Shown one piece after another: positions 2,771 to 21,258 of a stretch of DNA of 36,454 nucleotides. Below the pieces are notes generated by a model that ran no database searches, was not told the DNA's origin, and saw only the letters and a program-made list of their open reading frames with translations. The first letter of the stretch is position 1, and every line of letters begins with the position of its first letter. Made by a program: the position numbers and the translations under genes. The stretch comes from Loigolactobacillus backii (GTDB taxonomy: Bacteria; Bacillota; Bacilli; Lactobacillales; Lactobacillaceae): NCBI RefSeq assembly GCF_003946275.1, contig NZ_RHNQ01000025.1:1-36454 (forward strand). Reading direction: 5' to 3'.

Positions 2771-2887
2771 TCTTTTAGACGTGGCACAAACGGCAACTTA
2801 CTACCTAGAGCTACAGAAGGCATTTTGGCCGTTGCGTGGCTAAAGTGCCTTAGGCTACATTTCCTGAACGCAAGGCTGGGCATTCTC
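2771..2887 (-). repeat. Palindromic intercistronic element A
   Basis: A member of the nested-palindrome family, in minus orientation (AGAGTG-like end at 2887, CACGTCTAAAAG end at 2771). The inner stem includes GGCATTTTGGCCG / CGTGGCTAAAGTGCC, flanked by CTACAGAAG and CCTTAGGCTAC. It is adjacent head-to-tail to element B. Boundaries are approximate. Confidence 0.75.
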
Positions 2888-3011
2888 TTCTAAAACGTGG
2901 CAGACAGAGCAGTTTACTCCATGTAGCTACAGAAATCGATTTGTCTGCTTCGCAGTCAAATTCGCTTTCTTAGGCTACATTCCACAAGTTAGGCGCCATT
3001 TTGGGCACTCT
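2888..3011 (-). repeat. Palindromic intercistronic element B (starts at the yabA stop)
   Basis: Read on the minus strand, the TAG stop of yabA runs into AGTGCCC, so the AGAGTG-type end shares the stop codon. The CACGTTTTAGAA end is at 2888. About 50 inner bases, including GAAAGCGAATTTGACTGCGA, match the fourth tandem copy near 6462-6580 with no visible difference. Confidence 0.85.
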
Positions 3012-3393
3012 AGTGTCTTTCTCCATAAATCACGTCCAAGCAAAAAGCGCATGGTTCGTCGTCGATTCTTCTTGAGCCGTACATTAGGTAACAGACGTGA
3101 AAGCCTTCTTCGTAAAGCTTTTCCAGGTTGGCCCGGGACTTTGACAGTTGCTGGGTTTTATCATCTGCCCCATTGGCATCTGATCTCTTGGCCTGAGCCG
3201 CCTCGCTTTCTGGCGTTTGGAGTTCTTCTAAATGTTCGCGTAGGTGTTGATTCTCGATCTCCAACTCGGCGTTGCGTTCTAAGATTTGCGTCATGTCGGT
3301 TTTCATTTCGTCGATCTTGGCCAACATTTGCTGGGTATTTTGCTCTAAATTAACGAAACTATCGTACAATTCGCGTTTGTCCAAATTACTCAC
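3010..3393 (-). CDS. yabA: DNA replication initiation control protein YabA
   Basis: A 127-residue negative regulator of replication initiation that binds DnaA and the sliding clamp DnaN in Firmicutes. The N-terminal 60 residues form a leucine-rich coiled coil ([16 protein letters not shown] onward), followed by a polar linker (about 60-88). The C-terminal zinc-binding segment has H99, C101, C115 and C118 in GFHVC...EPCAFC, ending DVIYGER. This is the standard family architecture and length. The ATG is preceded by AAGAAAGGTGAG. The neighbours ricT upstream and rsmI downstream match the Bacillus order. Its TAG stop forms the end of a palindromic repeat. Confidence 0.95.
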
Positions 3394-3508
3394 CTTTCTT
3401 AAAGCAGGGTTTGTTGGTGGGGTGCTGGGTTTGCTTTGAAAACTACATCAGACTTTGGCTTTAGCTCTTAAGCTGACACTTTAAAGTCAGTCGCCACTTT
3501 AGCTCTTC

Positions 3509-3632
3509 CTTCTGAATCGTGTGCTGAAAGCAAATTCTTCCATATAACTACAGAAAAGCCCCTTCGGCCGTTGCACCGGCCAGAACTTCTTCCTAGATTA
3601 TACAGTTCGCAAGTCCAGACAGCCTTAGCCTT
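3509..3632 (-). repeat. Palindromic element, first copy between ricT and yabA
   Basis: It starts CTTCTGAATCGTGTGCTGAA like the next two copies and contains ACTACAGAA, then CGGCCGTTGCACCGGCC as a short inner stem. It is the most diverged of the three copies here. Boundaries are taken from the repeated CTTCTGAATCG end. Confidence 0.65.
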
Positions 3633-3746
3633 CTCTTCTGAATCGTGTGCTGAAAAGCAAATTCCTCCATGTAGCTACAGAAGTTCCTTCGGCCGTTGCA
3701 CAGCCAAAACTTTCTCCTAGATTATACAGTCCACAAGTGCAGTCTT
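3633..3746 (-). repeat. Palindromic element, second copy between ricT and yabA
   Basis: It shares TTCTGAATCGTGTGCTGAA, CCATGTAGCTACAGAAG and CCTAGATTATACAGT with its neighbours. The inner stem is CGGCCGTTGCACAGCC, slightly decayed. The three copies are arranged head to tail with a period near 115-125 bases. Confidence 0.7.
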
Positions 3747-3873
3747 CTCTTCTGAATCGTGTGCTGAAAAGCAGCTTCCTGCGGTTAGCTACAAAAGTCG
3801 TCTCATCCGTTTCACGGATAAGCCGCCTTTTTAGGCTAATCCTCAGAAGCTACCCGCTTTTCATCACACTTTG
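3747..3873 (-). repeat. Palindromic element, third copy, overlapping the ricT stop
   Basis: The outer arms AAAAGCAGCTTCC and AGAAGCTACCCGCTTTT flank TTAGCTAC/TTAGGCTAA. The inner arm is ATCCGTTTCACGGAT. On the minus strand the ricT stop lies in AAAGTGTGATG, the position of the AGAGTG end. The element therefore begins exactly where the gene ends. Confidence 0.8.
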
Positions 3874-4652
3874 ATCTCGTCCAAATCATACTCCACTGGC
3901 ACTTCATGGCCATCCAACCGGACGCGGATAACGTGGGTTAGTAAATTCATTCCCACCACTTTACCGCCACCATCAGCCGTTTCGATGCGGCTGCCGTAAT
4001 CAGGCATGGCCGCCTTTTCTGCTTCATAAGTTTTATCTTCAAAACTCAGGCAGCACATCAACCGGCCACAGAGCCCGGAAATTTTAGTTGGGTTCAGTGA
4101 CAGATTCTGGTTTTTCGCCATTTTGATCGAAACTGGCGCAAACTCACCGAGAAATTCCGAACAGCATAGTGGCCGGCCACAAGGACCAATGCCGCCTAGA
4201 ATCTTGGCCTCATCCCGCACACCAACTTGGCGCAGTTCAATTCTGGTCTTGAAAATGGCCGCCAAACTACGAACGAGTTCCCGAAAATCAACTCGGCCGG
4301 CCGCCGTAAAGTCAAAAATTAATTTATGTTTGTTCAACGTGTAGTAGGCCAAATCCAATTTCATCGGTAAGTGCAACTTCATGACTTGTTCCCTGGCCGT
4401 CCGCAAAGCCTTTACCGCCGCAACTTTGTTTTGTGCGTAGTGGGCCAAATCCAGTTGGCTAGCGGTGCGTTCAATCACTTCATTGCTGAGCACAATTTCG
4501 CTAGGATCAAGCTCAAGCCTTTGAGCCGCCCGCGCAATTTCCTCACAGTGATCGACCGCCACGACAACCGCTTCGCCGACTTTAATTCGTAATTTATTTT
4601 CCAAATAAGCTAACTTCTCCGCTTTTCGAAAGCGGATTGCGATTACTTCCAT
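3864..4652 (-). CDS. ricT: RicT / YaaT (PSP1 domain) regulatory iron-sulfur protein
   Basis: A PSP1-domain protein of 262 residues. In B. subtilis it joins RicA and RicF in a complex that stimulates RNase Y processing, and it was first described as a sporulation gene. The N-terminus MEVIAIRFRKAEKL is typical. The cysteine-rich signature GGIGPCGRPLCC and, further on, SGLCGRLMCCLSFE supply the residues used for Fe-S or metal binding in the family. I chose the ATG at 4652, preceded by GGGGGG at 7 bases. An in-frame GTG at 4700 would add 16 residues unlike the family. It lies between holB and yabA as in Bacillus. The stop codon overlaps a palindromic repeat. Confidence 0.93.
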   Translation of the reverse strand: MEVIAIRFRKAEKLAYLENKLRIKVGEAVVVAVDHCEEIARAAQRLELDPSEIVLSNEVIERTASQLDLAHYAQNKVAAVKALRTAREQVMKLHLPMKLDLAYYTLNKHKLIFDFTAAGRVDFRELVRSLAAIFKTRIELRQVGVRDEAKILGGIGPCGRPLCCSEFLGEFAPVSIKMAKNQNLSLNPTKISGLCGRLMCCLSFEDKTYEAEKAAMPDYGSRIETADGGGKVVGMNLLTHVIRVRLDGHEVPVEYDLDEIKV

Positions 4653-4748
4653 CCCTGGACCCCCCAATTCAAAGTGCTTAGAAGAACAAATTTGCCACAC
4701 TACTGCTAATCCCTGCTCAAACTACTTAAACAATGACAAAACTACCCA

Positions 4749-5729
4749 CTATAATAATTTCAAAGTTAAATCCTCTAACGTATTCTGAAAACTGACATTG
4801 GCGTTTAAATAACGCTGAGCCTGTAAAACGGCCTCCATTTGTTGCAGTAACTTCGCCACCGTCGTATTTTCTGCCCAACTGGTCAACGTTTTTTCCGCTT
4901 GGGGAAAACTAAGGTCGCCGCGCTGGTCAAAATGAACCGCCAGAATATCTTGATACAGCAGTAAAATGACTGCCAAAGCCTGGCCCTGGGCAATTTTATC
5001 CTTCACCAAGGGCACAATCTGCGTCTGCACCGCGACGAACGCCTGGCCGTTATGCTGCTGGACGTGGGTTAGCCACTGCCACAGCCGCTCCTTCAACGGA
5101 TTAAACCAATCACTGGCCGCCAATTCGCTGGCCACGGTGACACTATTAGTCATGTGCGCCAATAAGGCCGCATCGTTGGCCGAAATTTCTTGTGCTTGCA
5201 GCCGTTTTAACAATTCAGGCCGCGGCAAATCTTGAAAATCAATAATCTGTAACCGCGATAACACCGTGGGCAACAGTTGATTTTTGGCAGAAGTCGTTAA
5301 AATCAAGTAAGTTTGCGGCGCTGGCTCCTCTAAAAATTTCAATAACCCATTAGCGGCGCCAGTGGTCATCTTATCGGCGTCTTGAATAATGAAAACGCGC
5401 TGATTGGTTTCCATGCCGCGCTTACTCAATTCACTTTTCAAAAAACGAATCTCATCAACTTTGATCGTTTGCCCTTCTGGTGCGACAACAACGACATCCG
5501 GGTGATTACCGGACAAAATTCGCTGACATTCACTGCAGGTCCCGTCAGGATTTCCGGCGGCGTCCACGTGCTGGCAAAAAAGCCGCAGCGCAATCCATTG
5601 AGCCAGTTCCATTTTGCCAGTCCCAGTGTCACCGGCAAATAAGTAGCCCTGACTCAGCTGGCCCTGGCCAATAATCCGCCGAAATAGCTCAACTAAGCGT
5701 CCCTGCAAGGTTTCAATTGTAAATGTCAT
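4749..5729 (-). CDS. holB: DNA polymerase III delta' subunit
   Basis: A clamp-loader subunit of 326 residues. With DnaX and HolA it opens and loads the beta clamp. An AAA+ fold is visible: a degenerate P-loop GDTGTGKM (33-40), a zinc knuckle with C52, C65 and C68 (GTCSEC), the QDADKMT segment, and SRLQ in place of the arginine-finger SRC motif. The divergent P-loop fits the non-hydrolysing role of delta'. The start is the ATG at 5729, one base after the yaaQ stop (TAA-G-ATG), so the two genes are translationally coupled. An upstream in-frame start (5822) lies inside yaaQ and adds an unrelated tail, so I rejected it. Confidence 0.93.
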   Translation of the reverse strand: MTFTIETLQGRLVELFRRIIGQGQLSQGYLFAGDTGTGKMELAQWIALRLFCQHVDAAGNPDGTCSECQRILSGNHPDVVVVAPEGQTIKVDEIRFLKSELSKRGMETNQRVFIIQDADKMTTGAANGLLKFLEEPAPQTYLILTTSAKNQLLPTVLSRLQIIDFQDLPRPELLKRLQAQEISANDAALLAHMTNSVTVASELAASDWFNPLKERLWQWLTHVQQHNGQAFVAVQTQIVPLVKDKIAQGQALAVILLLYQDILAVHFDQRGDLSFPQAEKTLTSWAENTTVAKLLQQMEAVLQAQRYLNANVSFQNTLEDLTLKLL

Positions 5730-5730
5730 C

Positions 5731-6063: not shown

Positions 6064-6085
6064 GGTTAATCACGCTCCTATGAGA

Positions 6086-6205
6086 GAGTGGCCAAATCGG
6101 CGCTTAACTTACTCCATATAACCTAAGAAGGCACTTTTGACCGTGTAACGGGCAAAATGACTTCTGTAGTTATATGGAGTAAGTTGCCGATTTTGCCACG
6201 TTTTA
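6086..6205 (+). repeat. Tandem palindromic element, copy 1 of 4
   Basis: The left end is GAGTGGCCAAATCGG and the right end CCGATTTTGCCACGTTTT, a 13-15 bp terminal inverted repeat. The middle arms are CTCCATATAACC / GTTATATGGAG, in which both sides have changed together relative to CTCCATGTAGC in other copies. The inner arm is AAGGCACTTTTGACCG / CGGGCAAAATGACTT. Confidence 0.88.
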
Positions 6206-6210
6206 GAATA

Positions 6211-6329
6211 GAGTGGTAAAAAGAGCGCTAGTTTACGGAGTGTAGCCTAAGAAGGCACTTTTGACCGTGCAACGGGCAAAATGACTTCTGTAGCTACACG
6301 GAGTAAACTGCTCTGTTTACCACGTTTTA
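6211..6329 (+). repeat. Tandem palindromic element, copy 2 of 4
   Basis: It has GAGTGGTAAA ... TTTACCACGTTTTAG outer arms, different from copy 1 but still self-complementary. The middle arm is CGGAGTGTAGCC / GGCTACACGG-like. The inner arm differs by one loop base from copy 1. Confidence 0.88.
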
Positions 6330-6336
6330 GAATAGA

Positions 6337-6457
6337 GAGTGGTAAGACCGGCGCTTAACTTGTGGAGTGTAGCCTAAGAAGGCACTTTTGACCGTGTAAC
6401 GGGCAAAATGACTTCTGTAGCTACATGGAACAAGTTGCCGGTGTTACCACGTTTTAG
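6337..6457 (+). repeat. Tandem palindromic element, copy 3 of 4
   Basis: The outer arms are GAGTGGTAAGACCGGCG / TGCCGGTGTTACCACG. The inner arm is the same as copy 1. The spacer AGAATAGAG between copies is shared with the other junctions. Confidence 0.88.
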
Positions 6458-6461
6458 AATA

Positions 6462-6580
6462 GAGTAGCCAAACCAACGCTTAACTTACGGAATGTAGCCT
6501 AAGAAAGCGAATTTGACTGCGAAGCAGACAAATCGATTTCTGTAGCTACATGGAGTAAGTTGCCGATTTTGCCACGTTTC
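6462..6580 (+). repeat. Tandem palindromic element, copy 4 of 4
   Basis: The left end GAGTAGCC is slightly decayed and the right end is TTGCCACGTTTC, 6 bases from the tmk stop. The inner arm is replaced by a different palindrome, AAGCGAATTTGACTGC / GCAGACAAATCGATTT. The same inner module occurs in element B at 2888-3011. Confidence 0.88.
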
Positions 6581-7530: not shown

Positions 7531-10500
7531 TTATTCGATCCCCAAAATTAACCGGACTTCTTCTTCGGTCAATGAGCCTTTGTTCTCCGTGCCGCTCAAC
7601 ACTTGATCGACAAAATTGCGCTTTTTTTCTTGTAGTTTATAGATCTGTTCCTCAATCGTGCCTTTCGTGATTAGACGGTAAACTTCCACCTTTTTGGTTT
7701 GACCAATGCGGTGGGCCCGCGCCGTTGCTTGGTCTTCCACCGCCGGATTCCACCAAAGATCAACTAGGATCACCGTATCGGCGCCCGTCAAATTTAACCC
7801 AGTCCCACCAGCTTTCAGTGAAATTAGAAAGACGGTCTTTTCGCCGGCGTTAAAGGCATCAACCATGGCCAGTCGTTCCTTAGGCTTGGTCCGCCCTTGT
7901 AGCATAAAGGTCGCAATATTCTGTTTGGCCAGTTCCGCTTCAATCATATTCAGCATACTGGTAAACTGGGAAAAAATTAGAACCCGGTGTTGATTATCCA
8001 CTGCCTGGTGTAAGATTTCGTTAAGCTGATCCAACTTGCCAGAACTCGCTTGGTAGTCATCAACGTACAACGCTGGCGTGTCGCAGATTTGGCGTAAGCG
8101 CGTCAATCCCGCTAAAATGGCAATTTTATTTTTTACGAAATTTTCGCTGGACATGCCCTTGATCGTAATCTGCATCTGTTTCAGCTGCGCCAAATAAACA
8201 GTCTTTTGTTCCGTGGTCATTTCATTGTACAAATTAGATTCAACCTTGGCCGGTAAATCTTTTAGCACTGCCACCTTCTCACGGCGCAAAATAAACGGTT
8301 TAACCCGCACCGCAATTTCATCCGGCGTCAGCTTGTTAAAGGCCTTCTTGCTCGGTAACAGACCAGGCATAACCAAGGCAAAAATCGCCCAGAGTTCTTC
8401 GGCGCGATTTTCGATTGGCGTTCCCGATAAGGCAAAGGTATTTTTCGGCGTCAATTTACGCAAATTCTGATTGGTTTTAGAGCTACCATTTTTCACGTAT
8501 TGGGCTTCATCCAACACTAAATAATTAAGCTCCCGCTGCTGGTAGTCTTCAATGTCTAAGCGAGCACTGTTATAACTGGTGATCAATACTGCCGCCGAGC
8601 TGGTTGCGATCAATTGGTGACGGTGTGCCTTGGTGCCATCAACCACTTCGACCTCAATCTTCGGCGCAAACTTAGCGAATTCTTCTTGCCAGTTATAGAT
8701 CAATGACGCGGGCGAAACGACTAGATTAGTTTGATCAGGCACTAAATGATTATTCAAAAACGTGATCATCTGCAGTGTTTTACCCAGCCCCATTTCATCG
8801 GCCAAGATACCACCAAAATGGTATGAATCCAACATTTCTAGCCACTTAACGCCTAGCTTTTGGTAGGGCCGTAATTTGGCATTAACTGGTTGGCTGGCGG
8901 CGACCGCAAACTGTTCCGGATGGGCCAGATCAGTGGTCAAACGTTTAAACTTCTGATCAAAGTTTGCTGTATCCCCCAGTGCAGCTTGAATGGCCAAGGC
9001 TTGTGAGGCGTGGACTTTCATTTGTCCATGTTTAAACTTGCCTTGCGCACGCACCTTAACCAAGGCCGCCGCCACCTTTTTCAGCTCATCGTCAACAAGG
9101 ACGATTGACCCATCAGGCCGCGCAATAAACGGCTGTGCAACGTCTAATTGTTCTAAAACTTGATCGACCTCATTTTCATTGATCCCACCAAAGGAGAAGC
9201 TAACCGCTAAGAACCCATCTGCCTGGCTAACATCGATTTTTGGCGTTAATTCAGCCGAATCCTGTAATAAAGCTTCTAATTCTGGCGTCAGTGTGACCAC
9301 CCCGTTGGTACGCAAGTTAGGCAACTCGTCCACAAAGAAACGGTACAATTCTTCGGCCGCGACGAAACTTTTAGTCCAGCTGCGCCCATGTTGGTGGAAT
9401 TCCAGGCTGCGTAAATAAGTTGCTGCCTGTGCTTCCATTTCTGAATTGCGCACAATCGTCTTATTTTTAGCAATATCATTGCTGTCAGTGATCTCACCGT
9501 CGTATTCGAAGGCCAACTTTAATACCAAGGTTTGCTTATCACGACTTAAGTCAAAATGCGGAATCATTTTCTTAACTACCAGCTGGGGCGGAAATTTGAT
9601 CATACCAACTTGCTGAAACAAAGTTACAAAATCACTAAGTTGACTCTCACTGTCCAGCGGAAAATGCAGCGCGTGACGCTGAGAATGGTATTCAACGACT
9701 TCATTATAATTATCGTTGATCTGCGCAATAATTCTAAATTGTTCACTAGTTGCTTGATAAAGCGTGTTTCGGCGGATGAGGACTAAATTAGAATTGACAA
9801 ACGATTGAAAATCAGCCTTAATTGTCAAATTATAGCCAGTAGCATTGGCCACTAGCTCACCACTCAGTAGGCCAGCCTCCGCCGTGAAGGCTTCAAGCTT
9901 GATAGTTTCATAGCGTTTAGTCTGCTCATCTGATTTAAAATAAAACGTGGGTAACGCAGTCAATAAAGCGACTGTATGCGCAAAATTATAGGTTGGCAGC
10001 ACCATGTATCTACTGGCACTCGCCCCGTAAATATCAATTTTGGCCTCGTTTTCAAGCTGCTTTAAAAAGTCAAGTAACGCTTGCTCGGTGGGCGCAAAAG
10101 CAGTGGCGCTAAGCTGAAACTCCCGCTTACCATTAGTTTGATACACAGCATGATTACGGTATGCCGCCAAAAAACGATCAATATTACTGACCACATAAAA
10201 TTTCGAATCCGCCCCGGCAACCCGTAATTTAATGAAGAAACGATCTACTTCCTGATAGCTCCAGTCGGCAGCAGTTTGACCGACAACCAGGGTCACTTCT
10301 AAGTGTAGTGCTGTATCAGTGCTCGCCTGCAGTGGTTGAAAATAATGCTTCTCTGGTAATTGAATCTGCTCTAAAAAATATTCGCCACTGGCCTGGGGTT
10401 CCAGAGCTTTTCGGTATTGTTCAAATTCAGGTGGTAGCGCCGATTTTGGGAGTGCTTGTTTAAGGACTGGCTTGGCAAAAAAGCTAGCCCGTCCATCCAA

Positions 10501-10926
10501 ATCAGCGCGCAACTGATTGTATTGCTGTTTATTGGCGTAAACTTCCCGTGCGGCTTCCGGATGATCCAACAATTGTTGTTCAAACTTCGCCGAGATTAAC
10601 AAGTAATGAGCGCCCATCTTTTTAGGAAAATTCAAATCATCAGTCTGGTCATTAAATAGCTGCTCAATTGGTCGCCCCTGTGACTTCAACAACTTGACCA
10701 CGGCCGCAATATGCTTACAGTAACCGTGACCAGGAAAGTAGGGGCATTCACAAAAATCGCTACCGGCATCGTTTTGGTTGACGGTAACGCCATATGCCTC
10801 AGTTCCGAAGACTGTTGCTTCCACCTCTTGCCGATCATTATCAATATATTGGATCACAACATCACCATTATTGGCAATTTTTGTGCCACGATTCCAGATT
10901 TTGATTGGTATTATTCTTTTTTCCAT
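7531..10926 (-). CDS. SNF2-family DEAD/H ATPase with SWIM zinc finger
   Basis: A large Swi2/Snf2-type ATPase of about 1131 residues (1135 from the ATG at 10938). The N-terminus carries a SWIM zinc finger, C-E-C...G-Y-C-K-H, at residues 63-76 of the longer form. The middle has no domain that I recognise. The C-terminal third is the helicase: ADEMGLGKT near 712-720, LDEAQYVKN near 806, SGTPIENR, then motif V/VI with AGGTGLNLTGAD and ARAHRIGQTKK near 1070-1080. SWIM plus SNF2 proteins of this size are common in Firmicutes; a role in DNA remodelling or repair is inferred from the family. I prefer the second ATG (10926) because GGAG lies 6 bases upstream. The gene sits between yaaL and tmk and ends in its own terminator. 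Confidence 0.88.
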   Translation of the reverse strand: MEKRIIPIKIWNRGTKIANNGDVVIQYIDNDRQEVEATVFGTEAYGVTVNQNDAGSDFCECPYFPGHGYCKHIAAVVKLLKSQGRPIEQLFNDQTDDLNFPKKMGAHYLLISAKFEQQLLDHPEAAREVYANKQQYNQLRADLDGRASFFAKPVLKQALPKSALPPEFEQYRKALEPQASGEYFLEQIQLPEKHYFQPLQASTDTALHLEVTLVVGQTAADWSYQEVDRFFIKLRVAGADSKFYVVSNIDRFLAAYRNHAVYQTNGKREFQLSATAFAPTEQALLDFLKQLENEAKIDIYGASASRYMVLPTYNFAHTVALLTALPTFYFKSDEQTKRYETIKLEAFTAEAGLLSGELVANATGYNLTIKADFQSFVNSNLVLIRRNTLYQATSEQFRIIAQINDNYNEVVEYHSQRHALHFPLDSESQLSDFVTLFQQVGMIKFPPQLVVKKMIPHFDLSRDKQTLVLKLAFEYDGEITDSNDIAKNKTIVRNSEMEAQAATYLRSLEFHQHGRSWTKSFVAAEELYRFFVDELPNLRTNGVVTLTPELEALLQDSAELTPKIDVSQADGFLAVSFSFGGINENEVDQVLEQLDVAQPFIARPDGSIVLVDDELKKVAAALVKVRAQGKFKHGQMKVHASQALAIQAALGDTANFDQKFKRLTTDLAHPEQFAVAASQPVNAKLRPYQKLGVKWLEMLDSYHFGGILADEMGLGKTLQMITFLNNHLVPDQTNLVVSPASLIYNWQEEFAKFAPKIEVEVVDGTKAHRHQLIATSSAAVLITSYNSARLDIEDYQQRELNYLVLDEAQYVKNGSSKTNQNLRKLTPKNTFALSGTPIENRAEELWAIFALVMPGLLPSKKAFNKLTPDEIAVRVKPFILRREKVAVLKDLPAKVESNLYNEMTTEQKTVYLAQLKQMQITIKGMSSENFVKNKIAILAGLTRLRQICDTPALYVDDYQASSGKLDQLNEILHQAVDNQHRVLIFSQFTSMLNMIEAELAKQNIATFMLQGRTKPKERLAMVDAFNAGEKTVFLISLKAGGTGLNLTGADTVILVDLWWNPAVEDQATARAHRIGQTKKVEVYRLITKGTIEEQIYKLQEKKRNFVDQVLSGTENKGSLTEEEVRLILGIE

Positions 10927-11004
10927 TGCTTGCTCCATCTTCTATGCCTAATTCATGTCGTTATACTGTTACCTATTCTACAATAATGCTGCTGAAAAAA
11001 GAAA

Positions 11005-11032: not shown

Positions 11033-11554
11033 AAAATTAATTCGTATTTTGCACACCACTAAACGTTCATTCGCTGGTTAAGGTAAATAATCATCCTGCT
11101 ACACAACGACTAGATTTAAACTAAATTTTACGTCGCTAGAATTAATTGGGCGAATTTGCCCCTTCTCTGCAGCAAACGCGAAAAAAAGAGCAGATTCCTG
11201 CGGTTGCCATGTTTCAACTTGGCGTTTTTCGGCATGCTAGTTCTTGCGGCATGAACTTTGCCACAAGAATAGACAACATTCGTAGCATCATGAGTTATTT
11301 GCGTTTCTTGCAAATAACTAACCTTAATTGCGAAGTAGTAGTTGAATGGTCAACGTATGAAGCATCAAGATTATTAGCGTATTAGGCTGCGATTCGGACT
11401 TCGGTTCACCCTAGTCCGATCGATATCGTCAGCAAAGCTAGTAATAATCCTCAATTGCGGAATAGTAGCTACAGCAGTCACTTCGGCCGTTTCACGGCCA
11501 AAGCGCCTACTTAGGCTAATCCTCAGAATCTACCGCTCTTTTTTTTGCTCTTTT
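11033..11554. other. Gene-free region holding an interrupted palindromic element
   Basis: No gene is supported in these 520 bases. The two ends of one palindromic element are seen at 11181-11206 (GAGCAGATTCCTGCGGTTG) and 11462-11546 (GTAGCTACAGCAG to CTACCGCTC). About 255 bases of unrelated sequence lie between them. That insert carries its own hairpins: AGTTATTTGC-N7-GCAAATAACT (11293-11319) and TCGGACT-N12-AGTCCGA (11394-11419). The remaining part is unassigned. Confidence 0.55.
11462..11546 (-). repeat. Palindromic element after yaaL (major part of an interrupted copy)
   Basis: It contains GTAGCTACAGCAG, then the inner stem CGGCCGTTTCACGGCC, then TTAGGCTAATCCTCAGAATC. All are close to the elements at 3747 and 13133. 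It begins a few bases downstream of the yaaL stop in the direction of transcription. Its other outer arm appears to be at 11181-11206. Confidence 0.75.
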
Positions 11555-12470: not shown

Positions 12471-12578
12471 AAAAAAGCGTTCAGATTCTGAAAATTAATT
12501 ACAACAGTCGTCTCAGCCGTTGCCCAGTAAAAGTAACCCGTTAACCTAATTCTCAAAATATGATCACGCTTCTTCACG
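12471..12578 (-). repeat. Palindromic element between ybaB and recR (decayed)
   Basis: The outer arms AAAAAGCGTTCAGATTCTGA and TTCTCAAAATATGATCACGCTTCTT are related to the 13133 element. ACAACAGTCGTCTCAGCCG and GTTAACCTAATTCTCA retain the core order. The inner stem is degraded. It lies between the two genes, starting 9 bases past the ybaB stop. Confidence 0.6.
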
Positions 12579-12907: not shown

Positions 12908-12937
12908 TTTATCAATCAATCCTTTCAAGTTTATCAA

Positions 12938-13054
12938 GAGTGTCGCAAAAGTCGCTCAGGTTCCACGCATTAGCCTAGATTATCGAAAAATTTATGAAAT
13001 AAATTATTTGGTAATCTAGGCTAAGCACAGGAACCTGCCTTTTTAGGCACGTTT
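12938..13054 (+). repeat. Palindromic element L, upstream of ybaB
   Basis: AGAGTGTCGCAAAAG to CTTTTTAGGCACGTTT. The middle arms are CAGGTTCC / GGAACCTG and TTAGCCTAGATTA / TAATCTAGGCTAA, both perfect. The inner loop is AT-rich. It is in opposite orientation to the neighbouring element at 13133, with the CACGTTT ends facing each other. Confidence 0.85.
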
Positions 13055-13132
13055 GGGCTAAGTAAATAGTGTAAGAAACCTAGGCCGCGTTTGCGAACTG
13101 TCTTTACTAGTATTCACCTGACTATTTTAGTG

Positions 13133-13251
13133 GAAACGTGTTTGAAAAAGCAGATTCCTGCGGTTAGCTACAACAGCCAAATCATCTGTTTCACAGATAA
13201 TTCGTCTGTTTAGGCTAATCCTCAGAATCTAACCGCTTTTTCAAACACTCT
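13133..13251 (-). repeat. Palindromic element M, starting at the dnaX stop
   Basis: On the minus strand the dnaX TAG stop runs into AGTGTTTGAAAAAGCGG and the element ends GCTTTTTCAAACACGTTTCC. The stems are GTTTGAAAAAGC / GCTTTTTCAAAC (12 bp perfect), GATTC/GAATC, then the inner ATCTGTTTCACAGAT. Confidence 0.88.
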
Positions 13252-14977
13252 AATCATCCTTAACTTCAATATTAGCAGAACCAAACAATTCTGTCGCCTT
13301 TTCAACAACTGGGGTCACTTGTGGCTTTTCGTCCGCCTTGGGTTGTTTACCGCGATGGTGCTCTTCAATGTAGGCTTGGCGGACTTTCGGCCAATCATCT
13401 TGAGGGACAAAAATAATTTTAGGTGTATAGCCTACCAGCCGATCCAGGCCGTTTTCTAAGCCATCAACCATTTCTGGGTTATTGCTGGCTCGTTCCAATA
13501 AAAAGTCGTTATCAAAGGACACAACGACGCCGTCATGACTGGCCGCCACTGGCTCTGAAGCGTGCATTAAGGCACGGTACTGCACGGACAGTGTTTGTAA
13601 TAGATCTTGCCAAACGCCCTTTAACTGCTGTAAATTTTCCTTTGTTGCGTGGTCGAGTACTGGGTAAACGGCCGCTGGATTGGCGTGCCGCGCCGGAGTA
13701 GTCGTCCGTTTCACCGGCCGCGGTGTCGCTGCAACTGGTGCAGCCTGACCTTCACTTGACTGCAACTGATCGACCGCCTGAGTTAATTGCTTAACTTGCG
13801 CCTGTAACGCCGCCACCGTTGCCTCTGGTGCAGCCTGTGAAGTCGCCTTTGATTGCACCTCTGGCTGATCCACTTGGGCTGTGACCGCCGCCACCTTAAG
13901 CTGGGTCAATTTCACGGTAACCACTTCCAGGTAGATATCTGGGTGGTTAGTAAAGCGCAATTGCTGCTGCATATCATTTAAAATATCAATTACTTCATAT
14001 AAGGTAGTCGCCGCCAAGCTCTGACTTAACGCCTTAAAATGATCATCCACGCTGCCCATTTCAATTTCAGTCACCATTTCCGGCGCTTTTTGGTAAAGGA
14101 GCAAGTCGCGACTATATTCGATTAAATCTTCAATAAAGCGGCTGGCATCTTTGCCCGCAGCCAACAACTGCTGCAAAATTTCCAGTGCCTTAGCCGTTGC
14201 CTGATCCTGAATTGTTTGCATGTAATCAGCCAACAGCGCCCGTGTTGTACTGCCAGTCACCTGCAACGCATTGTCCAACGTCACGTGATTATCACTAAAG
14301 GACAAAACCTGATCCAAAATACTCAGCGCATCCCGCATGCCACCTTCTGCAGCCTTCGCGATGGCCTTCAAAGCTTCCGGCTCAAAAGTGACTTCTTTTT
14401 CCTGCAAAATGTACACCATCCGCTGATAAATATCCTGGCTATTAATCCGCCGAAAATCAAAACGCTGAGTCCGGGAAATAATCGTCAACGGTACCTTATG
14501 CGGCTCAGTTGTCGCCAAAATGAACAAAACGTGTTCCGGCGGCTCCTCCAATGTTTTCAGTAAAGCATTAAAAGCGCCCGTGGACAACATGTGGACTTCA
14601 TCAATAATATAAACTTTATATTTGGCCGCAGTCGGCGCATATTTCGCCTTGTCCCGAATATCGCGAATTTCGTCAACACCATTATTCGACGCCGCATCAA
14701 TTTCAATGACGTCGTTTAGCGTACCGGCCGTAATCGCCTTACAAGTTTCACATTCATTGCAAGGCTCGCCATTCTTCAAATTAGGACAATTAATGGCCTT
14801 AGCCAAAATCTTTGCCGCCGACGTTTTACCAGTCCCCCGCGGACCAGTAAATAAATAAGCGTGACTAGTCTGCTGAGCAATTAACGCATTGCGCAACGTT
14901 TTCGTAATCGTCTCCTGCCCGACAATATCCGCAAATTTCTGCGGCCGCCAAGTACGGTATAAAGCTTGATAGGCCAA
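13250..14977 (-). CDS. dnaX: DNA polymerase III gamma/tau subunit
   Basis: A 575-residue clamp-loader ATPase subunit. The AAA+ core shows the family N-terminus YQALYRTWRPQKF, Walker A GPRGTGKT (45-52), a zinc knuckle with C64, C73, C76 and C79, Walker B IIDEVHML (124-131), and the SRTQRFDFR sensor/arginine-finger segment. An Ala/Gln-rich linker (about 370-440) precedes a C-terminal tau-like domain. I see no internal frameshift signal. The start is TTG at 14977, with AAAGGAGG at 8 bases, so the unusual start codon is well supported. Downstream come ybaB, recR and yaaL; upstream is ffs, the common Lactobacillales order. Confidence 0.95.
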   Translation of the reverse strand: MAYQALYRTWRPQKFADIVGQETITKTLRNALIAQQTSHAYLFTGPRGTGKTSAAKILAKAINCPNLKNGEPCNECETCKAITAGTLNDVIEIDAASNNGVDEIRDIRDKAKYAPTAAKYKVYIIDEVHMLSTGAFNALLKTLEEPPEHVLFILATTEPHKVPLTIISRTQRFDFRRINSQDIYQRMVYILQEKEVTFEPEALKAIAKAAEGGMRDALSILDQVLSFSDNHVTLDNALQVTGSTTRALLADYMQTIQDQATAKALEILQQLLAAGKDASRFIEDLIEYSRDLLLYQKAPEMVTEIEMGSVDDHFKALSQSLAATTLYEVIDILNDMQQQLRFTNHPDIYLEVVTVKLTQLKVAAVTAQVDQPEVQSKATSQAAPEATVAALQAQVKQLTQAVDQLQSSEGQAAPVAATPRPVKRTTTPARHANPAAVYPVLDHATKENLQQLKGVWQDLLQTLSVQYRALMHASEPVAASHDGVVVSFDNDFLLERASNNPEMVDGLENGLDRLVGYTPKIIFVPQDDWPKVRQAYIEEHHRGKQPKADEKPQVTPVVEKATELFGSANIEVKDD

Positions 14978-15660: not shown

Positions 15661-16647
15661 TTAATACCAACCATTTGCTTCCCAGAATGACTGTGCCTTA
15701 CTCCAGCTACCGTAAGTTGAAGTGACGTAAGAGTTAGCAACAGCTTCTTGGTTTGATGCCGAATAATCACCATTTAAATATGAAGAACTTAATTGATACT
15801 TACCGATATACTGACCGTTAGTTGCTGAATAATTACCGCCAGATTCCTTGTTAGCAATCCAAGCTTTAGCGGCAGCTTCGGAGCTACTTGTTGAAGTAGC
15901 GGCGTTATTAGTACTAGTTGCTGAACTAGCAGTTGATTGTGTGTTTTGTGTTGCCTGTGCTTGTGGTGCAGTGTATGTCGATTGTGTGCTTACTGGAGCC
16001 GATACGGCAGAAGCAGCACTAGTTGCAGCTACACTAGAAGCCTGTGAAACTGGCGCTGCAGATGAGACTGGCGCAGTTGAACCAACTGGGGCCGTACTGC
16101 TTGCTGGGGCAACAGAACTGACAGGAGCAGTTGAGCTAACAGGCGTTGCGCTGCTTACTGGGGCAACGGAACTAACTGGTGCAGTACTGCTTACTGGCGC
16201 AACCGAACTGACAGCTGCAACGCTACTAACTGGCGCAACTGAAGAAGCTGCAACGGCTGATACTGGCGCTGCAGATGAGACAGGTGCCACTGAAGCAGCA
16301 GGCGCAACTGAACTGACTGGTGCAGCCTGTGAAACTGGTGCTGCACTAGCAGGCTGTTGAACAGCACTTGGCTGAGCAGCGGCTGCCGTAGATGCAACTG
16401 CACTACTTGGAATATTATATTTTTGACCGGCATAGATTAAATGCGTGGTTTTATTGATGTTATTAGCTGTTTCAATTGAATCGATTGTTGTGTTGTAATC
16501 TTCGGCAAGATCAGAAACCGTGTCGCCAACCTTAGCAGTAATGACTGCTGCATCAGCGACCTTAGCGCCACCGATCAAGATACCAGCGGCACCGGCTGTT
16601 GTGAGTAATACCATTTTTAGACGTTTACTTAATAAAATAAAAATCAC
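15661..16647 (-). CDS. Secreted LysM protein, aggregation-promoting factor (Apf)-like
   Basis: A secreted protein of up to 328 residues. A charged start (SKRLK) and a hydrophobic stretch ending AKVADA form a signal peptide. One LysM peptidoglycan-binding domain follows (about 34-79, KVGDTVSDLAEDYNT...YAGQKYNIP). A low-complexity tract of APVSS-type units (about 90-230) comes next. The C-terminal domain (about 262-328) has KAWIANKESGGNYSATNGQ...GKYQLSSSYL, a lysozyme-like fold typical of lactobacillar Apf proteins. It acts at the cell surface, in shape or cell-wall turnover by family inference. The start is unclear: AGGAG overlaps the GTG at 16647, whereas an in-frame ATT at 16638 is 8 bases downstream. 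The ATG at 16614 would remove the charged N-region. Confidence 0.85.
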   Translation of the reverse strand: MIFILLSKRLKMVLLTTAGAAGILIGGAKVADAAVITAKVGDTVSDLAEDYNTTIDSIETANNINKTTHLIYAGQKYNIPSSAVASTAAAAQPSAVQQPASAAPVSQAAPVSSVAPAASVAPVSSAAPVSAVAASSVAPVSSVAAVSSVAPVSSTAPVSSVAPVSSATPVSSTAPVSSVAPASSTAPVGSTAPVSSAAPVSQASSVAATSAASAVSAPVSTQSTYTAPQAQATQNTQSTASSATSTNNAATSTSSSEAAAKAWIANKESGGNYSATNGQYIGKYQLSSSYLNGDYSASNQEAVANSYVTSTYGSWSKAQSFWEANGWY

Positions 16648-17662: not shown

Positions 17663-17755
17663 CCCTGTAGCGAGGGCCGTAAGCCCTAGCACGAATTTAA
17701 TATCATTGACAAAAAGTGACCAACGCCAACAAGATTTAAGCATATTTAATCGCAG

Positions 17756-17811: not shown

Positions 17812-18304
17812 CTGTCTTCTGCTTCTTTTTAGCCTTTCGTTTAGCCCTAATTTGGCGGAAAAATTGCTGCAATAATCCCGCCGCGTCATCTGCTAAAACG
17901 CCGGCTTCCACTTCAGCTTGGTGGTTAAAGCGCTCGTCCGTTAGTAAATTCATGAAAGTGCCCGCCGTACCTGCCTTTGGGTCAGGGGCACCGTAATAGA
18001 CTTCACTTAAGCGCGAATTAATAATTGCCCCGCTGCACATCGGACAAGGTTCTAAGGTGACAAAAATTGCTGCATCCTCCAAACGCCAACTATGAATTGT
18101 GGCGCAGGCCTCCTGAATCGCCAAAATTTCGGCGTGGGTCGTTGCGTCCTGGCTGTGTTCCCGCAAATTATGACCACGGCCAATAATTTCACCGCGGTAA
18201 ACAATAACGGCCCCAATCGGCACTTCACCGATCAAGGCCGCCGTTTTTGCTTCAAATAAGGCCTCACGCATATAAAATTCTTTTTCAGTTTGCTCAAATA
18301 CCAA
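17798..18304 (-). CDS. tadA: tRNA-specific adenosine deaminase
   Basis: A 168-residue deaminase that converts A34 to inosine in tRNA-Arg(ACG). The zinc site is complete: H57-A-E59 (THAEI) and P-C87-P-M-C90 (LEPCPMCSGAI). The N-terminal helix YMREALFEAKTAA and the GAVIV segment are typical. The basic C-tail (RAKRKAKKKQKTEKQ) is longer than the core domain needs. The TTG start at 18304 has GGAG 8 bases upstream; an internal ATG at 18271 is a less likely alternative. It follows the aldo/keto reductase gene by 26 bases. In related genomes tadA lies close to ffs and dnaX; here mgtC and apf genes intervene. Confidence 0.95.
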   Translation of the reverse strand: MVFEQTEKEFYMREALFEAKTAALIGEVPIGAVIVYRGEIIGRGHNLREHSQDATTHAEILAIQEACATIHSWRLEDAAIFVTLEPCPMCSGAIINSRLSEVYYGAPDPKAGTAGTFMNLLTDERFNHQAEVEAGVLADDAAGLLQQFFRQIRAKRKAKKKQKTEKQS

Positions 18305-18330
18305 ATTCCTAACTCCATTCCTACTATTAA

Positions 18331-19179
18331 TTAAATAATCGCCAAGGGCCGCTTTTTAGTCGGTGCCGGAAAGGCTGCGTCAATCTGCACTATTTCTGCC
18401 GGCGTTAACGTGACATCAGCCGCCGCCAAATTAGCCTGCATGTGTTTCCACTGACTAGTTTGGGGAATCGCAAGCAGCTGTGGTTGCCGAATCGTCCACG
18501 CTAATAAAAGCTGCATCGACGTAATTTGGTGTGCCTTAGCAATTTTTTGAATCACAGGATTAGCCGTCAATTGCTGGCCTCGACTATCCCCCTGGGCAAT
18601 CGGCGAGTAGGCAATAAAAGGAACCCCATTTTTCAGTTGCCAAGGTAATAAATCGTATTCCACGCCGCGGTCCGCCAAATTATACAAATCTTCATTGGCA
18701 AAAACGTCCGCACCGTTAGTTTCTTGAAACAATTCTAACATATCAGCTGTATCAAAGTTAGAGACACCCCAATGCCGAATCTTGCCCGCTTGCTGTAATT
18801 GACGCAGCCCGGTAATTGTTTCCTTTAACGGAACTTGCCCCCGCCAATGAAGTAAATAAAGGTCGAGGTAGTCCGTTTGCAGTCGTTTCAAACTGGCGGT
18901 TAAACTCTGCTTCATCCGCTTGATTGATGCGTTTTGCGGATAGAATTTTGAAACCAAAAATAATTTTTCCCGGGTATACGGCTTAATAGCCGCACCGACC
19001 AATTCTTCGGAACGACCGTCCCCATACATTTCCGCGGTATCAATGAGATTGCTACCGTGCTCAAGGCCGTAACGCAGCGCCTGAATTTCTCCGCCGCGTT
19101 TATTCGGATCGTCGCCCATGTGCCAAGTTCCCATCCCAATGACGGGCAAGCGCTCGCCCTTAAAATCTAGATAACGCAT
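18331..19179 (-). CDS. Aldo/keto reductase
   Basis: A 282-residue NADPH-dependent oxidoreductase with a TIM-barrel fold. The catalytic tetrad is readable: D47 and Y52 (DTAEMYGDGRSE), K78 (VSKFYP) and H111 (YLLHWRG). The cofactor-binding C-terminal region has the IPQTSQWKHMQANL segment. The ATG is preceded by GAAAGGAAG. It is probably cotranscribed with tadA downstream (26-base gap). The substrate is unknown; the family reduces a wide range of aldehydes and ketones. Confidence 0.92.
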   Translation of the reverse strand: MRYLDFKGERLPVIGMGTWHMGDDPNKRGGEIQALRYGLEHGSNLIDTAEMYGDGRSEELVGAAIKPYTREKLFLVSKFYPQNASIKRMKQSLTASLKRLQTDYLDLYLLHWRGQVPLKETITGLRQLQQAGKIRHWGVSNFDTADMLELFQETNGADVFANEDLYNLADRGVEYDLLPWQLKNGVPFIAYSPIAQGDSRGQQLTANPVIQKIAKAHQITSMQLLLAWTIRQPQLLAIPQTSQWKHMQANLAAADVTLTPAEIVQIDAAFPAPTKKRPLAII

Positions 19180-19263
19180 TTTTAACTTCCTTTCAAAACA
19201 AAGTTGCTACGATAAATAAACGCTGATTAGGGCCACCGCGATCATTAAAGCACGGGACAAAAA

Positions 19264-19296
19264 GAGCTCCCGCAGCAATTAGCTTTTCGGGAGCCC
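19264..19296 (-). terminator. Terminator after the small membrane-anchored protein gene
   Basis: On the minus strand GGGCTCCCG-N15-CGGGAGCTC is followed by TTTTTGTCC, 7 bases after the stop of the upstream gene. Confidence 0.85.
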
Positions 19297-19302
19297 ATTA
19301 TT

Positions 19303-19641
19303 TTAATGCCGGTATTCGTGTAGCCAATCTTTCAACGTTGCAGTCAATTCATTAGCTGCGTTGCCTGCTGAGCCAACGTACACACCAGCCTTATTGCGAA
19401 CTTTGCTTAACTTTTCAACCGCATTAACCAAGTGATTGAGATCATCGTTGTCAATTCGATCAACGAGGTCAAGTATCCGCTCGTTGCCCTTAAGGTTGTC
19501 CCGCACGAACGTTTTCACTTTATACCGATTTCTACGGGTTTGAATTTGTTCGACAATGGCATCCGCTGCTAAATAGGCGCCGGTTGCGGCAAGCGTTGTC
19601 GTAATACCAATACCAAGTAAAATTTTGCTACCAGTTTTCAT
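19303..19641 (-). CDS. Small membrane-anchored protein of unknown function
   Basis: A 112-residue protein. The N-terminus MKTGSKILLGIGITTTLAAT continues into GAYLAADAIVEQ, a single hydrophobic segment with a positively charged start, so a membrane anchor is likely. The rest is charged and helical (RRNRYKVKTFVRDNLKGNER, then VDRIDNDDLNHLV). Similar small YtxH-like proteins are common in lactobacilli, but I do not assign a family. The ATG follows AAGGAGG at 8 bases, so it is very likely translated. It forms its own transcription unit, with a terminator after it and a palindromic element just upstream. Confidence 0.75.
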   Translation of the reverse strand: MKTGSKILLGIGITTTLAATGAYLAADAIVEQIQTRRNRYKVKTFVRDNLKGNERILDLVDRIDNDDLNHLVNAVEKLSKVRNKAGVYVGSAGNAANELTATLKDWLHEYRH

Positions 19642-19663
19642 AAAGTCAGCCTCCTTATTAGAG

Positions 19664-19782
19664 AGAGTGCCTAAAAAGGCGTTCAGCCCCTGAGCATTAG
19701 CCTAGACCACCAAACGATCCGCTTCGCGTATCGTTTGGCGATCGTAGCTAAGCACAAGGAGTTGCCTTTTTAGTCACGTTTC
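19664..19782 (+). repeat. Palindromic element N, upstream of the small membrane-anchored protein gene
   Basis: AGAGTGCCTAAAAAGGCG ... TTGCCTTTTTAGTCACGTTT, with an outer stem of 11 bp. The middle stems are TTAGCCTAGA / CGTAGCTAAGC. The inner palindrome is CAAACGATCCGCTTCGCGTATCGTTTG-like (19709-19736). Confidence 0.85.
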
Positions 19783-19893
19783 ATTTCCACCAGAATCAGT
19801 CCGAAAAATAATTTCCAACCGATCTAGTAAAGTATCCAGTAATGCTTAATTTCAGTGTACCATAATCTTGCTTCCTTGGGGACTAAAGCGCAC

Positions 19894-20499
19894 TCATACT
19901 TGCTTAACACTTTGAATAATATAGTAACCTTTATTTTTCTTCACGATTGTTGCGTTGCCAAAGGTTTCTTGCATCGTTTTTTGGGCGGAAGGTGCACCCT
20001 GTTTTTTCTGTAAAACAATCGTTAACGTTCCCCCTGGCAGTAAGTGATCCTTGGCGCCAACTAAAATCCCCGTCACGACTTGTTTACCAGCCCGGACCGG
20101 CGGATTGGATAAAATAGCCGCGTACTGCTTCTCTACAGCTGCGTATTGATCAGAAGTGAAAATAGCAACGTTAGCCACGTGATTATTTGCGGCATTTTCC
20201 CGGGCCAATGATAAAGCCAGCTCATTGACGTCCACCAGATCAACTTGGCGTTCAGGAGCCTCTTTGGCCAACGCTAACCCAATTGGGCCGTAACCGGCAC
20301 CCACATCCAGTAAATCACCTGCAGGCAAGTCAGTAAAACTAAACGCTTCTAGTAAGGTGCGTGTCCCGAAATCAACGGTTCGTTTTGAAAACACACCATT
20401 ATCAGTTACAAAATGAAATTCGTGGCCTCGCAACGTAAACGACCAATCTTTTTTTTCGTGAACCACATCAGGATTTTCTGAATAATAATAATTTGTCAT
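19894..20499 (-). CDS. RsmC-like class I SAM methyltransferase
   Basis: A 201-residue methyltransferase of the MTS small-domain family (YbxB in Bacillus). The SAM site is LLDVGAGYGPIGLALA (about 64-79). The N-x-P-P catalytic signature is ILSNPPVRAGKQV (about 129-141). These motifs are shared with RsmC (16S rRNA guanine-1207) and its relatives, but substrate is not proven. It corresponds to the C-terminal half of E. coli RsmC, the usual single-domain form in Firmicutes. The ATG follows GGGGG at 9 bases. It is divergent from nrdH. Confidence 0.87.
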   Translation of the reverse strand: MTNYYYSENPDVVHEKKDWSFTLRGHEFHFVTDNGVFSKRTVDFGTRTLLEAFSFTDLPAGDLLDVGAGYGPIGLALAKEAPERQVDLVDVNELALSLARENAANNHVANVAIFTSDQYAAVEKQYAAILSNPPVRAGKQVVTGILVGAKDHLLPGGTLTIVLQKKQGAPSAQKTMQETFGNATIVKKNKGYYIIQSVKQV

Positions 20500-20684
20500 G
20501 ATTAAATTCCCCCGGAGCTATAATTAATTTATTAAATTTTTATTTTTAGGAATCAGGCCTACGTCGCCGCCCTTTTGGACTCAAAATTGACAACCTAACG
20601 ACCATTTTTGACCCCCAAAACATACTCAAACGAAATGGCTTGTGGTAAACTAATTGTACCATGAATCGCCAGAAGTTCCGGCCA

Positions 20685-20731
20685 ACACTATATCTAGTAG
20701 CTATTTTAAATTTAGCTACCGAATATAGTGT
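20685..20731. promoter_or_regulatory. Pair of NrdR boxes upstream of nrdH
   Basis: Box 1 ACACTATATCTAGTAG (20685-20700) and box 2 CTACCGAATATAGTGT (20716-20731, minus strand ACACTATATTCGGTAG) are centred 31 bp apart, three helical turns. This is the known spacing for the ATP/dATP-sensing repressor NrdR. The pair ends 6 bases before the -35 box. The two boxes are also inverted copies of each other and precede TTTTTT, so a hairpin could form as well. Confidence 0.75.
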
Positions 20732-20737
20732 TTTTTG

Positions 20738-20766
20738 TTGATTTATTGTAAGTGACTGGTTATACT
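20738..20766 (+). promoter_or_regulatory. Promoter of nrdH(EF)
   Basis: -35 TTGATT, 17-base spacer, -10 TATACT, 41 bases before the nrdH ATG. Confidence 0.75.
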
Positions 20767-20807
20767 AAGAACATAAACAAAAAGTACCAGAGAGAAAGGT
20801 GAACCAC

Positions 20808-21035
20808 ATGAATAACTTAACAGTTTACACAAAAAATGGTTGCATGCAGTGCAAGATGACTGAACGCTTCCTCAATTCGCACAATATTCCTTTTACAGAA
20901 CACAATATTGATCAAGAACCAGAATACGTCGACTATCTGCGGGAAAAGGGCTTTCAAGCAACACCAGTGATTGAAGCATCAGACATCAGCTTCACCGGCT
21001 TCCGCCCCGACCAATTACGCCAATTAGCAGTTTAA
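20808..21035 (+). CDS. nrdH: NrdH-redoxin (glutaredoxin-like)
   Basis: A 75-residue thioredoxin-fold protein that donates electrons to class Ib ribonucleotide reductase. The active site is C12-M-Q-C15 in YTKNGCMQCKMTERFL. The C-terminal part has ATPVIEA and the SFTGFRPDQL segment, which in this family helps binding to thioredoxin reductase. I chose the ATG at 20808, with AAAGG 8 bases upstream, rather than a GTG nine bases earlier. It is followed by nrdE and nrdF in the same direction. Confidence 0.93.
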   Translation: MNNLTVYTKNGCMQCKMTERFLNSHNIPFTEHNIDQEPEYVDYLREKGFQATPVIEASDISFTGFRPDQLRQLAV

Positions 21036-21161
21036 AGTGATAAAAGTGGCGGTCAAACGCTTATGCTTACGCCATTTTACCGCTTAAACATCATAATAGC
21101 ACCAGATTCCAATAAGTAACCAACTTAGCAACGTCGTAAACCATAAGACACAACGTTTCTC

Positions 21162-21198
21162 GCACCACTTGCGGGAACGCCGGGTGCCTTTTATTTTT
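21162..21198 (+). terminator. Weak terminator between nrdH and nrdE
   Basis: GCACC...GGTGC with an inner GCG/CGC pair is followed by CTTTTATTTTTT. The stem is imperfect, so it may be partial. Confidence 0.45.
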
Positions 21199-21203
21199 TG
21201 CTC

Positions 21204-21258
21204 AGAGTGTTTGAAAAGACGGTTAGATTCTGAGGATTAGCCTTTTCAAACACGTTTC
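21204..21258 (+). repeat. Minimal palindromic element O (inner arm deleted)
   Basis: AGAGTGTTTGAAAAG ... CTTTTCAAACACGTTT. It matches element M (minus strand of 13133-13251) in its first 38 bases and its last 15. It lacks about 65 bases of inner palindrome. The match to M continues past the end: TCCACTAAACTAGTCAGG here, TCCACTAAAATAGTCAGG there. Confidence 0.85.

Follow-up and report, generated by a model that had tools for sequence, protein, structure and literature searches.

A modular palindromic repeat of Lactobacillales that resembles BOX elements and tends to begin at gene stop codons

The dnaX to rsmI replication operon of a Loigolactobacillus backii genome (NCBI RefSeq assembly GCF_003946275.1, here the home genome) carries many copies of a nested-palindrome element that runs from AGAGTG to CACGTTT. 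The operon lies on contig NZ_RHNQ01000025.1, and the whole stretch analysed, positions 1 to 36,454 of the forward strand, is called the window. We conclude that the elements probably belong to a mobile repeat, non-autonomous and BOX-like, that Lactobacillales share with some other Bacilli and that acts as a portable gene 3′ end. Copies share a fold kept by compensatory evolution on one strand, number from none to ~100 per genome and can stand in tandem. At fixed sites strains differ by whole modules and, in one case, by the presence or absence of a whole unit; copies tend to begin at stop codons and to be followed by a terminator-like hairpin. The reading as a gene 3′ end draws on these position and terminator statistics, while movement in trans and an effect through RNA would be further steps suggested by the sequences. 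The family is real and large and apparently undescribed, and its kind, the modular dispersed palindromic repeat, is already known. To our knowledge, small dispersed repeats such as BOX are still without a proven mover or a clear function. Because this family is widespread, under strong structural constraint, lands reproducibly at stop codons and differs by whole modules between close strains, its mover and RNA function can be tested in food-grade bacteria. If the elements end transcripts, 3′ ends would be rewired in operons as central as dnaX to rsmI.

Read in its one direction, a full unit of ~120 nt begins with AGAGTG and a stem arm, followed by a 4-nt bulge (GNTY in most copies) and a second stem; inward of these lie a small internal loop, a third stem, a CTA/GTA internal loop (most copies) and an inner hairpin, and the returning arms close the unit with CACGTTT. 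The AGAGTG...CACGTTT strand folds into a 45-pair stem with fixed loops, hairpin A, of very high stability (most copies lie between −40 and −70 kcal/mol). A first-pass annotation, made from the sequence alone, had described units of 110–125 bp with a fixed internal order; the order and a length near 120 nt hold, but the element is longer where a linker and second hairpin follow. In the alignment of a refined covariance model, R2 (28 sequences, hand-specified 45-pair structure), 91.7% of cells were paired, compared with 69.7% after shuffling and 33–46% in slid controls, and double compensatory changes were present in 40 of the 45 pairs. Because the structure came from these sequences, the outcome of the slid controls is partly expected, and more weight lies on the double changes. 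Of 104 base pairs altered at 15 orthologous places, 48 had changed on both sides and 28 on one side without loss of pairing, and 28 were broken. Gene conversion among copies could yield part of this pattern. Within stems, G.T exceeded A.C by 161:34, 132:49 and 65:28 in three alignments, counted over rows at least 80% paired with G.T taken as a pair, two of the three alignments being fitted to the model, which itself leans that way. From this excess, the folded molecule is most likely the AGAGTG-to-CACGTTT strand, either as RNA or as single-stranded DNA. Copies from distant families, when folded, keep the outer stem and the bulge, with the foot recognisable; the foot is asymmetric (AGAG versus CGTTT) and conserved across families.

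The first-pass annotation had proposed a genome search with a covariance model, and had placed the family chiefly in the replication operon. A model made from 12 window copies only (R1) gave 141 matches at E ≤ 10 across the home genome, including 51 on other contigs at E ≤ 2e-11, in each case among the best 150 of 1533 candidates. In contrast, BLAST with one copy gave only 9 matches, and the spread is therefore visible only with a structure model. With a place counted once whichever strand matched, the best 150 of 167 matches reduce to 100 distinct places without overlap across the window and the fetched own-genome stretches; the window holds 11. Merging places within 1.5 kb left 68 loci on 34 contigs. 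The window contig held 5 loci versus 0.97 expected (P 0.003), and contig C74 held 7 versus 0.73 (P 1e-5); 29 of the 68 loci lay on seven dense contigs that make up 9.2% of the genome and were chosen after the counts were known. Clustering on the window contig is thus real but moderate and not specific to the dnaX to rsmI operon, whose place in a genome-wide family is incidental. On contig C65, two copies ~3 kb apart (near 20266 and 23232) have the same left flank, which suggests a tandem duplication that carried the element.

Relatives matched too. R2, with both strands of the palindrome counted and the best 150 candidates scored in each genome, was positive in 14 of 19 genomes: 38–123 matches in five Loigolactobacillus (123 in L. 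iwatensis JCM 18838), 41–135 in seven Levilactobacillus (126 in Levilactobacillus cerevisiae, 63 in L. brevis), 29 in Desemzia incerta and 1 in Limosilactobacillus panis, with 0 in five other genomes. At E ≤ 0.001, R2 matched 71 of 151 Lactobacillaceae, in 21 of 40 genera (best 24 candidates per genome); 63 of 295 Lactobacillales, including 47 from other families (best 12); and 6 of 398 Bacilli, which include the home genome and three outside Lactobacillales (best 9). These sample counts are probably lower bounds, and their weakest single matches were not individually checked. With one L. brevis copy as query, no phage and no plasmid matched; two other queries gave three Latilactobacillus curvatus records in all, and one of these (NZ_CP016468.1), with genes for GMP reductase and trmL, is perhaps not a plasmid. 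Three short patterns found 0, 0 and 27 stretches in viral contigs, and the model found nothing at E ≤ 0.01 in those 27. In five loci of Levilactobacillus cerevisiae (L198, L199, L201, L205 and L018), copies stand inside a further outer inverted repeat (approximately GCCAAATTTAGGC ... GCCTAAATTTGGC), forming a larger composite. An element-dense stretch of JCM 18838 (C23:1-20000, L277) has only repeat matches to the home genome among the best 40 of 213 candidates, and may be strain-specific.

The elements stand in a characteristic position relative to genes, which we called by our own open reading frame (ORF) rules and not from annotation. In the home genome, 28 of the 40 copies with a co-directional upstream gene start within −12 to +15 nt of the end of its stop codon, and at least six of the remaining 12 are later units of tandem arrays. 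Among 122 copies from other genomes (126 rows before removal of duplicates and rows with short flanks), the stop of a co-directional ORF ends between 24 nt upstream of the element and 8 nt within it in 63, compared with 4 of 122 on the 3′ side and 2–8 of 125 at shifted control positions. In 13 of these 122 copies the stop codon is built from the element's own first bases. On the Latilactobacillus curvatus plasmid p-1.1928_1, a copy begins 9 nt past the stop of an annotated coding sequence.

Downstream, copies from many genera continue after CACGTTT with a loosely conserved linker of ~24 nt (approximately RRCTATAWAATTYGGAG, from 38 selected copies) and then a terminator-like hairpin with a T run, hairpin B. 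Such a hairpin was present within 90 nt of 45 of 125 copies, versus 2.4–7.2% in four controls, and its stem started 21–29 nt downstream in 27 of the 47 hairpins found in a slightly longer window. Only this second hairpin shows the Rho-independent terminator pattern, a GC-rich stem-loop with a T run; after hairpin A come CGTTT and the linker, without such a run. Several copies of one species (L237, L239, L241, L242 and L244) have a near-identical tail, and the tail therefore travels with the element. The home genome has an alternative tail, approximately ACACTAAATTAGTCAGG plus a hairpin that shows no clear T run, at 40 of 99 right ends by a loose pattern; 17 directly adjoin another unit.

In the window, all 15 starts listed by the first-pass annotation carry the element in the order it described: 9 strong copies, 1 long version, 1 internally deleted copy and 4 decayed copies, in both orientations. 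A 16th copy, a reduced relic, lies inside the ribosomal-protein region, from which the family had been reported absent. The scores below come from an unfiltered R2 run on the window. Because 7 of the 9 strong copies (all but 6209 and 6460) trained R2, the non-circular evidence is that from outside the window.

2776–2887, minus strand: decayed copy, tandem unit 2 of a pair in the yabA–rsmI gap (R1 62.6 bits, in the R1 training set; R2 15.2 bits, E 0.078)
2892–3012, minus strand: full copy whose first 3 nt overlap the yabA stop codon (R2 E 4e-21; position)
3514–3637, minus strand: decayed copy, tandem unit 3 in the yaaT–yabA gap (R1 57.9 bits, in the R1 training set; R2 E 6.5)
3640–3751, minus strand: decayed copy, tandem unit 2 in the yaaT–yabA gap (R1 66.1 bits, in the R1 training set; R2 E 0.48)
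3754–3873, minus strand: full copy, tandem unit 1 in the yaaT–yabA gap, overlapping the last 10 nt of yaaT (R2 E 3e-29; position)
6084–6204, plus strand: full copy, tandem unit 1 of 4 in the tmk–yaaQ gap, antisense to the genes (R2 E 7e-26)
6209–6328, plus strand: full copy, tandem unit 2 of 4 in the tmk–yaaQ gap (R2 E 7e-25)
6335–6455, plus strand: full copy, tandem unit 3 of 4 in the tmk–yaaQ gap (R2 E 2e-27)
6460–6580, plus strand: full copy, tandem unit 4 of 4 in the tmk–yaaQ gap (R2 E 4e-22)
11174–11552, minus strand: long version of ~379 bp with the usual outer arms, interior modules M1, M2 and M3 and a degenerate left foot (sequence and fold; core 11466–11518, R2 E 1e-8)
12472–12573, minus strand: decayed copy in the ybaB–recR gap (R2 E 0.019; nested fold on the minus strand)
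12936–13055, plus strand: full copy in the dnaX–ybaB gap, inner hairpin replaced (R2 E 1e-25)
13078–13132, minus strand: tail of L. iwatensis type belonging to the 13133 copy, CCACTAAAATAGTCAGG followed by a second hairpin in degenerate form, with an approximate end (many copies have similar sequence downstream)
13133–13252, minus strand: full copy overlapping the dnaX stop codon, with an extra 103-bp module M2 in JCM 18838 (R2 E 3e-32; strain comparison)
19663–19782, plus strand: full copy; the start codon of a divergent gene lies 21 nt away (R2 E 4e-27; position)
21203–21258, plus strand: internally deleted 56-bp copy with the outer stem and part of the second stem (R2 E 2e-8)
21258–21299, plus strand: tail with a perfect second hairpin, GGAAAGTACT...AGTACTTTCC (sequence)
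31098–31185, plus strand: reduced relic that keeps the foot, CACGTT, the linker and a terminator-like hairpin (R2 match weak at E 2.1; sequence reading)

For the long version at 11174–11552, we rejected a copy split by a foreign insertion, its interior modules recurring in many copies.

Comparison between strains and species points to turnover of the elements, orthologous gaps being short where no element lies. The home genome stands very near L. iwatensis. The window is 99.7–99.96% identical to L. iwatensis JCM 18838 over 16 kb, and other compared loci are ~87 to 99.5% identical. The tmk–yaaQ gap measures 523 bp in both the home genome and JCM 18838; it is 396 bp long in L. zhaoyuanensis, where a copy is present, and 9–39 bp in the 16 other loci. 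For dnaX–ybaB the values are 312 bp in the home genome, 415 bp in JCM 18838 and, for the 17 others, −18 to 55 bp. The 103-bp difference at the dnaX site is precisely module M2, within the 13133 element, and at another site the home-genome and JCM 18838 versions of one element are set apart by module M1 (44 bp). One element differs by three modules at once (344 versus ~118 bp) with an inner hairpin common to both strains but for one base, which argues for gain or loss of modules in place and not for replacement of the whole interior. Other orthologous sites hold clearly different elements in these two strains. At one further site, where the home genome has 5 bp, JCM 18838 has a nested composite of ~290 bp: a divergent second unit, with a terminator-like hairpin, encloses the first in its loop.

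Two observations from the same strain pair stand apart. Contig C62 is 99.7–99.98% identical to JCM 18838, whereas most other loci are ~87–98.5% identical and one 99.5%, suggesting that recent exchange has been uneven. An inverted-repeat insert of ~300 bp, unrelated to the family and probably a separate miniature inverted-repeat transposable element (MITE), lies in an element tail of JCM 18838 (L281:8140-8780) and is absent from the home genome (C74:18300-18760).

We infer the following course. The element would be selfish and moved in trans, by an enzyme recognising the fixed bulge and asymmetric foot of the folded strand. Insertions would survive best directly behind a stop codon, where the element would supply the host gene with a new 3′ untranslated region (UTR) and terminator. 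In that place the hairpin would block read-through by polymerase, shield the 3′ end of the mRNA, or offer RNase III a site to cut between the genes of an operon. Hairpin modules that insert or are excised precisely would account for the variety of interiors, much as with the variable boxB modules of BOX. A bolder version, which we offer tentatively, is of a Bacilli-wide, mobile RNA-like element whose machinery may read the folded strand and itself place it at stop codons; the element might then spread as a self-contained 3′ end (stop codon, hairpin, linker and terminator), its interior hairpins being mobile modules.

Several findings weigh against a mobile, portable gene 3′ end. The upstream gene is divergent for 35 of 76 home-genome copies, with 40 co-directional and one without an upstream call; 16 of these 35 sit 6–67 nt before the start codon of the upstream gene. 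Nearly half being divergent, a purely 3′-UTR role does not account for such copies. The copies in the position and terminator counts are mostly the best-scoring of their genomes and not a random draw, a few of the counted terminator-like hairpins belong to a following tandem unit as its inner hairpin, and the usual L. iwatensis tail hairpin is without a clear T run. The whole-unit presence/absence case is single and unpolarised, with no clear target duplication; a possible AGAA repeat at the one empty site overlaps the foot. Finally, no mobile enzyme was identified, in a search that covered a single transposase family, Y1 (PF01797).

The divergent copies speak as well against a different explanation, in which the elements are host-owned 3′-UTR regulatory RNAs under selection, with a host protein or ribonuclease binding the bulge and foot, and with occasional duplication in place of selfish spread. 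The compensatory changes in the 104 altered base pairs at the 15 orthologous pairs, the stop-codon position with its terminator-like hairpin, and the breadth across Lactobacillales all agree with such a role, but related genera range from 0 to >100 matches per genome, units form tandem arrays, close strains carry different elements at the same site, and the compensatory pattern may in part reflect gene conversion. We regard host ownership as unlikely. We are similarly doubtful that the elements are MITEs of a DDE insertion sequence with matching ends. Their palindromic ends, small size and dispersed copies fit that description, as do ends common to internally deleted copies; however, the asymmetric foot is conserved across families, the one empty site shows no target duplication separable from the foot, and no full-length parent with the same ends was found among 49 own-genome stretches and the window in a search that was not exhaustive.

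Both REP/BIME elements (repetitive extragenic palindromic sequences and bacterial interspersed mosaic elements) and MITEs had been named as analogues in the first-pass annotation, and the analogy as dispersed repeats holds, with BOX closer. That annotation did not mention BOX, the placement at stop codons, the terminator or the differences in modules. REP/BIME elements have a Y1 partner, the REP-associated tyrosine transposase (RAYT), and Y1 enzymes read imperfect strand-specific hairpins, which would suit REP-like sequences moved by a RAYT or an IS200/IS605 Y1 transposase. Yet the RAYT that the annotation had suggested looking for did not appear: PF01797 was not found in the home genome and is present in 2 of 8 Loigolactobacillus. 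Its association with the elements within Lactobacillaceae is weak (25 of 71 element-bearing versus 18 of 80 element-free genomes, n = 151, Fisher p 0.10, overlap hand-counted), and we rejected mobilisation by such enzymes as very improbable. We find it harder still to credit an antitermination switch in which the 5′ arm of hairpin A pairs with either its own 3′ arm or the terminator. The 3′ arm of the terminator does often repeat the hairpin 3′ arm (CTTTTGTCCCA), and in 29 of 38 copies pairing of the 5′ arm with its own terminator region exceeds that with shuffled regions. In contrast, pairing within a copy beats pairing across copies in only 24 of 38 selected copies, and a hairpin A of such stability speaks against alternative pairing; this candidate, too, was rejected.

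The family was unfamiliar to the first-pass annotation, and we found no description of it in the open-access literature, subscription papers being largely outside the search. In Rfam (release 15), no family reached its gathering score over an element in the window and 12 other element-bearing loci, and at E up to 5, in 6 sources, three matches appeared, none over an element. A known Rfam RNA was thus rejected, including rli28 (RF01492, a Listeria small RNA), which matched at L104:12715-12880 on contig C63 with 46.2 bits against a threshold of 45, outside any element.

Among described repeats, BOX of Streptococcus pneumoniae is the closest structural parallel, compared by description only. According to the available excerpt of Croucher et al. 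(2011, PMC3049150), BOX is a dispersed non-autonomous repeat with 125 copies in one genome, a size that varies with the interior modules between its fixed ends and a stem-loop RNA fold; apart from related elements in S. suis it is nearly confined to S. pneumoniae and S. mitis, and target duplications are attributed to it. The excerpt names no mover. Fixed end modules around variable interior modules are present here as well, whereas the new family, as far as that excerpt allows comparison, differs in spanning Lactobacillales and beyond, beginning at stop codons and often having a terminator-like hairpin. The same excerpt gives SPRITE of S. pneumoniae as an 18-bp duplex with a U-rich tract (PMC3049150). 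SPRITE as described there is likewise a repeat with a terminator-like hairpin, but the present family has two hairpins, of which just the second is of that type. Efa-1 of Enterococcus faecalis, also named EFAR, could be a relative by its partial description, its adjacent pair of stem-loops resembling hairpin A with hairpin B; two Enterococcus genomes searched with R2 gave no match. Efa-1 is a 163-bp repeat predicted as two adjacent stem-loops in the excerpted source (PMC2267715), and REP units are described in their excerpt as imperfect extragenic palindromes of 20–40 bp, present in high copy and tagged with GTAG or CGTC (PMC3733652). The present elements share with REP/BIME, so described, the high-copy imperfect extragenic palindrome, but are 120 nt long, have the AGAG/CGTTT foot and come with no Y1 found in the home genome. 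The attC sites of integron cassettes are imperfect strand-specific hairpins directly after a stop codon. That likeness extends to our elements, which differ in lying among core genes in conserved order, with no cassette array seen (an integrase was not searched for).

Other features were noted near the elements. Directly after the ribonucleotide reductase small-subunit gene, at 24652–24751 of the window, lies a long near-perfect palindrome with GCAGTACTGC arms (~−60 kcal/mol with flanks); R2 matches it at E 0.007, but it is without the family foot and was not counted as a copy. A SNF2-type helicase gene (7531–10938) stands between yaaL and tmk, a gap of 4323 bp here and in JCM 18838 and ≤1522 bp in 15 other loci with both genes found. 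Within a LysM-domain protein gene, 18-base tandem repeats occupy 16045–16341.

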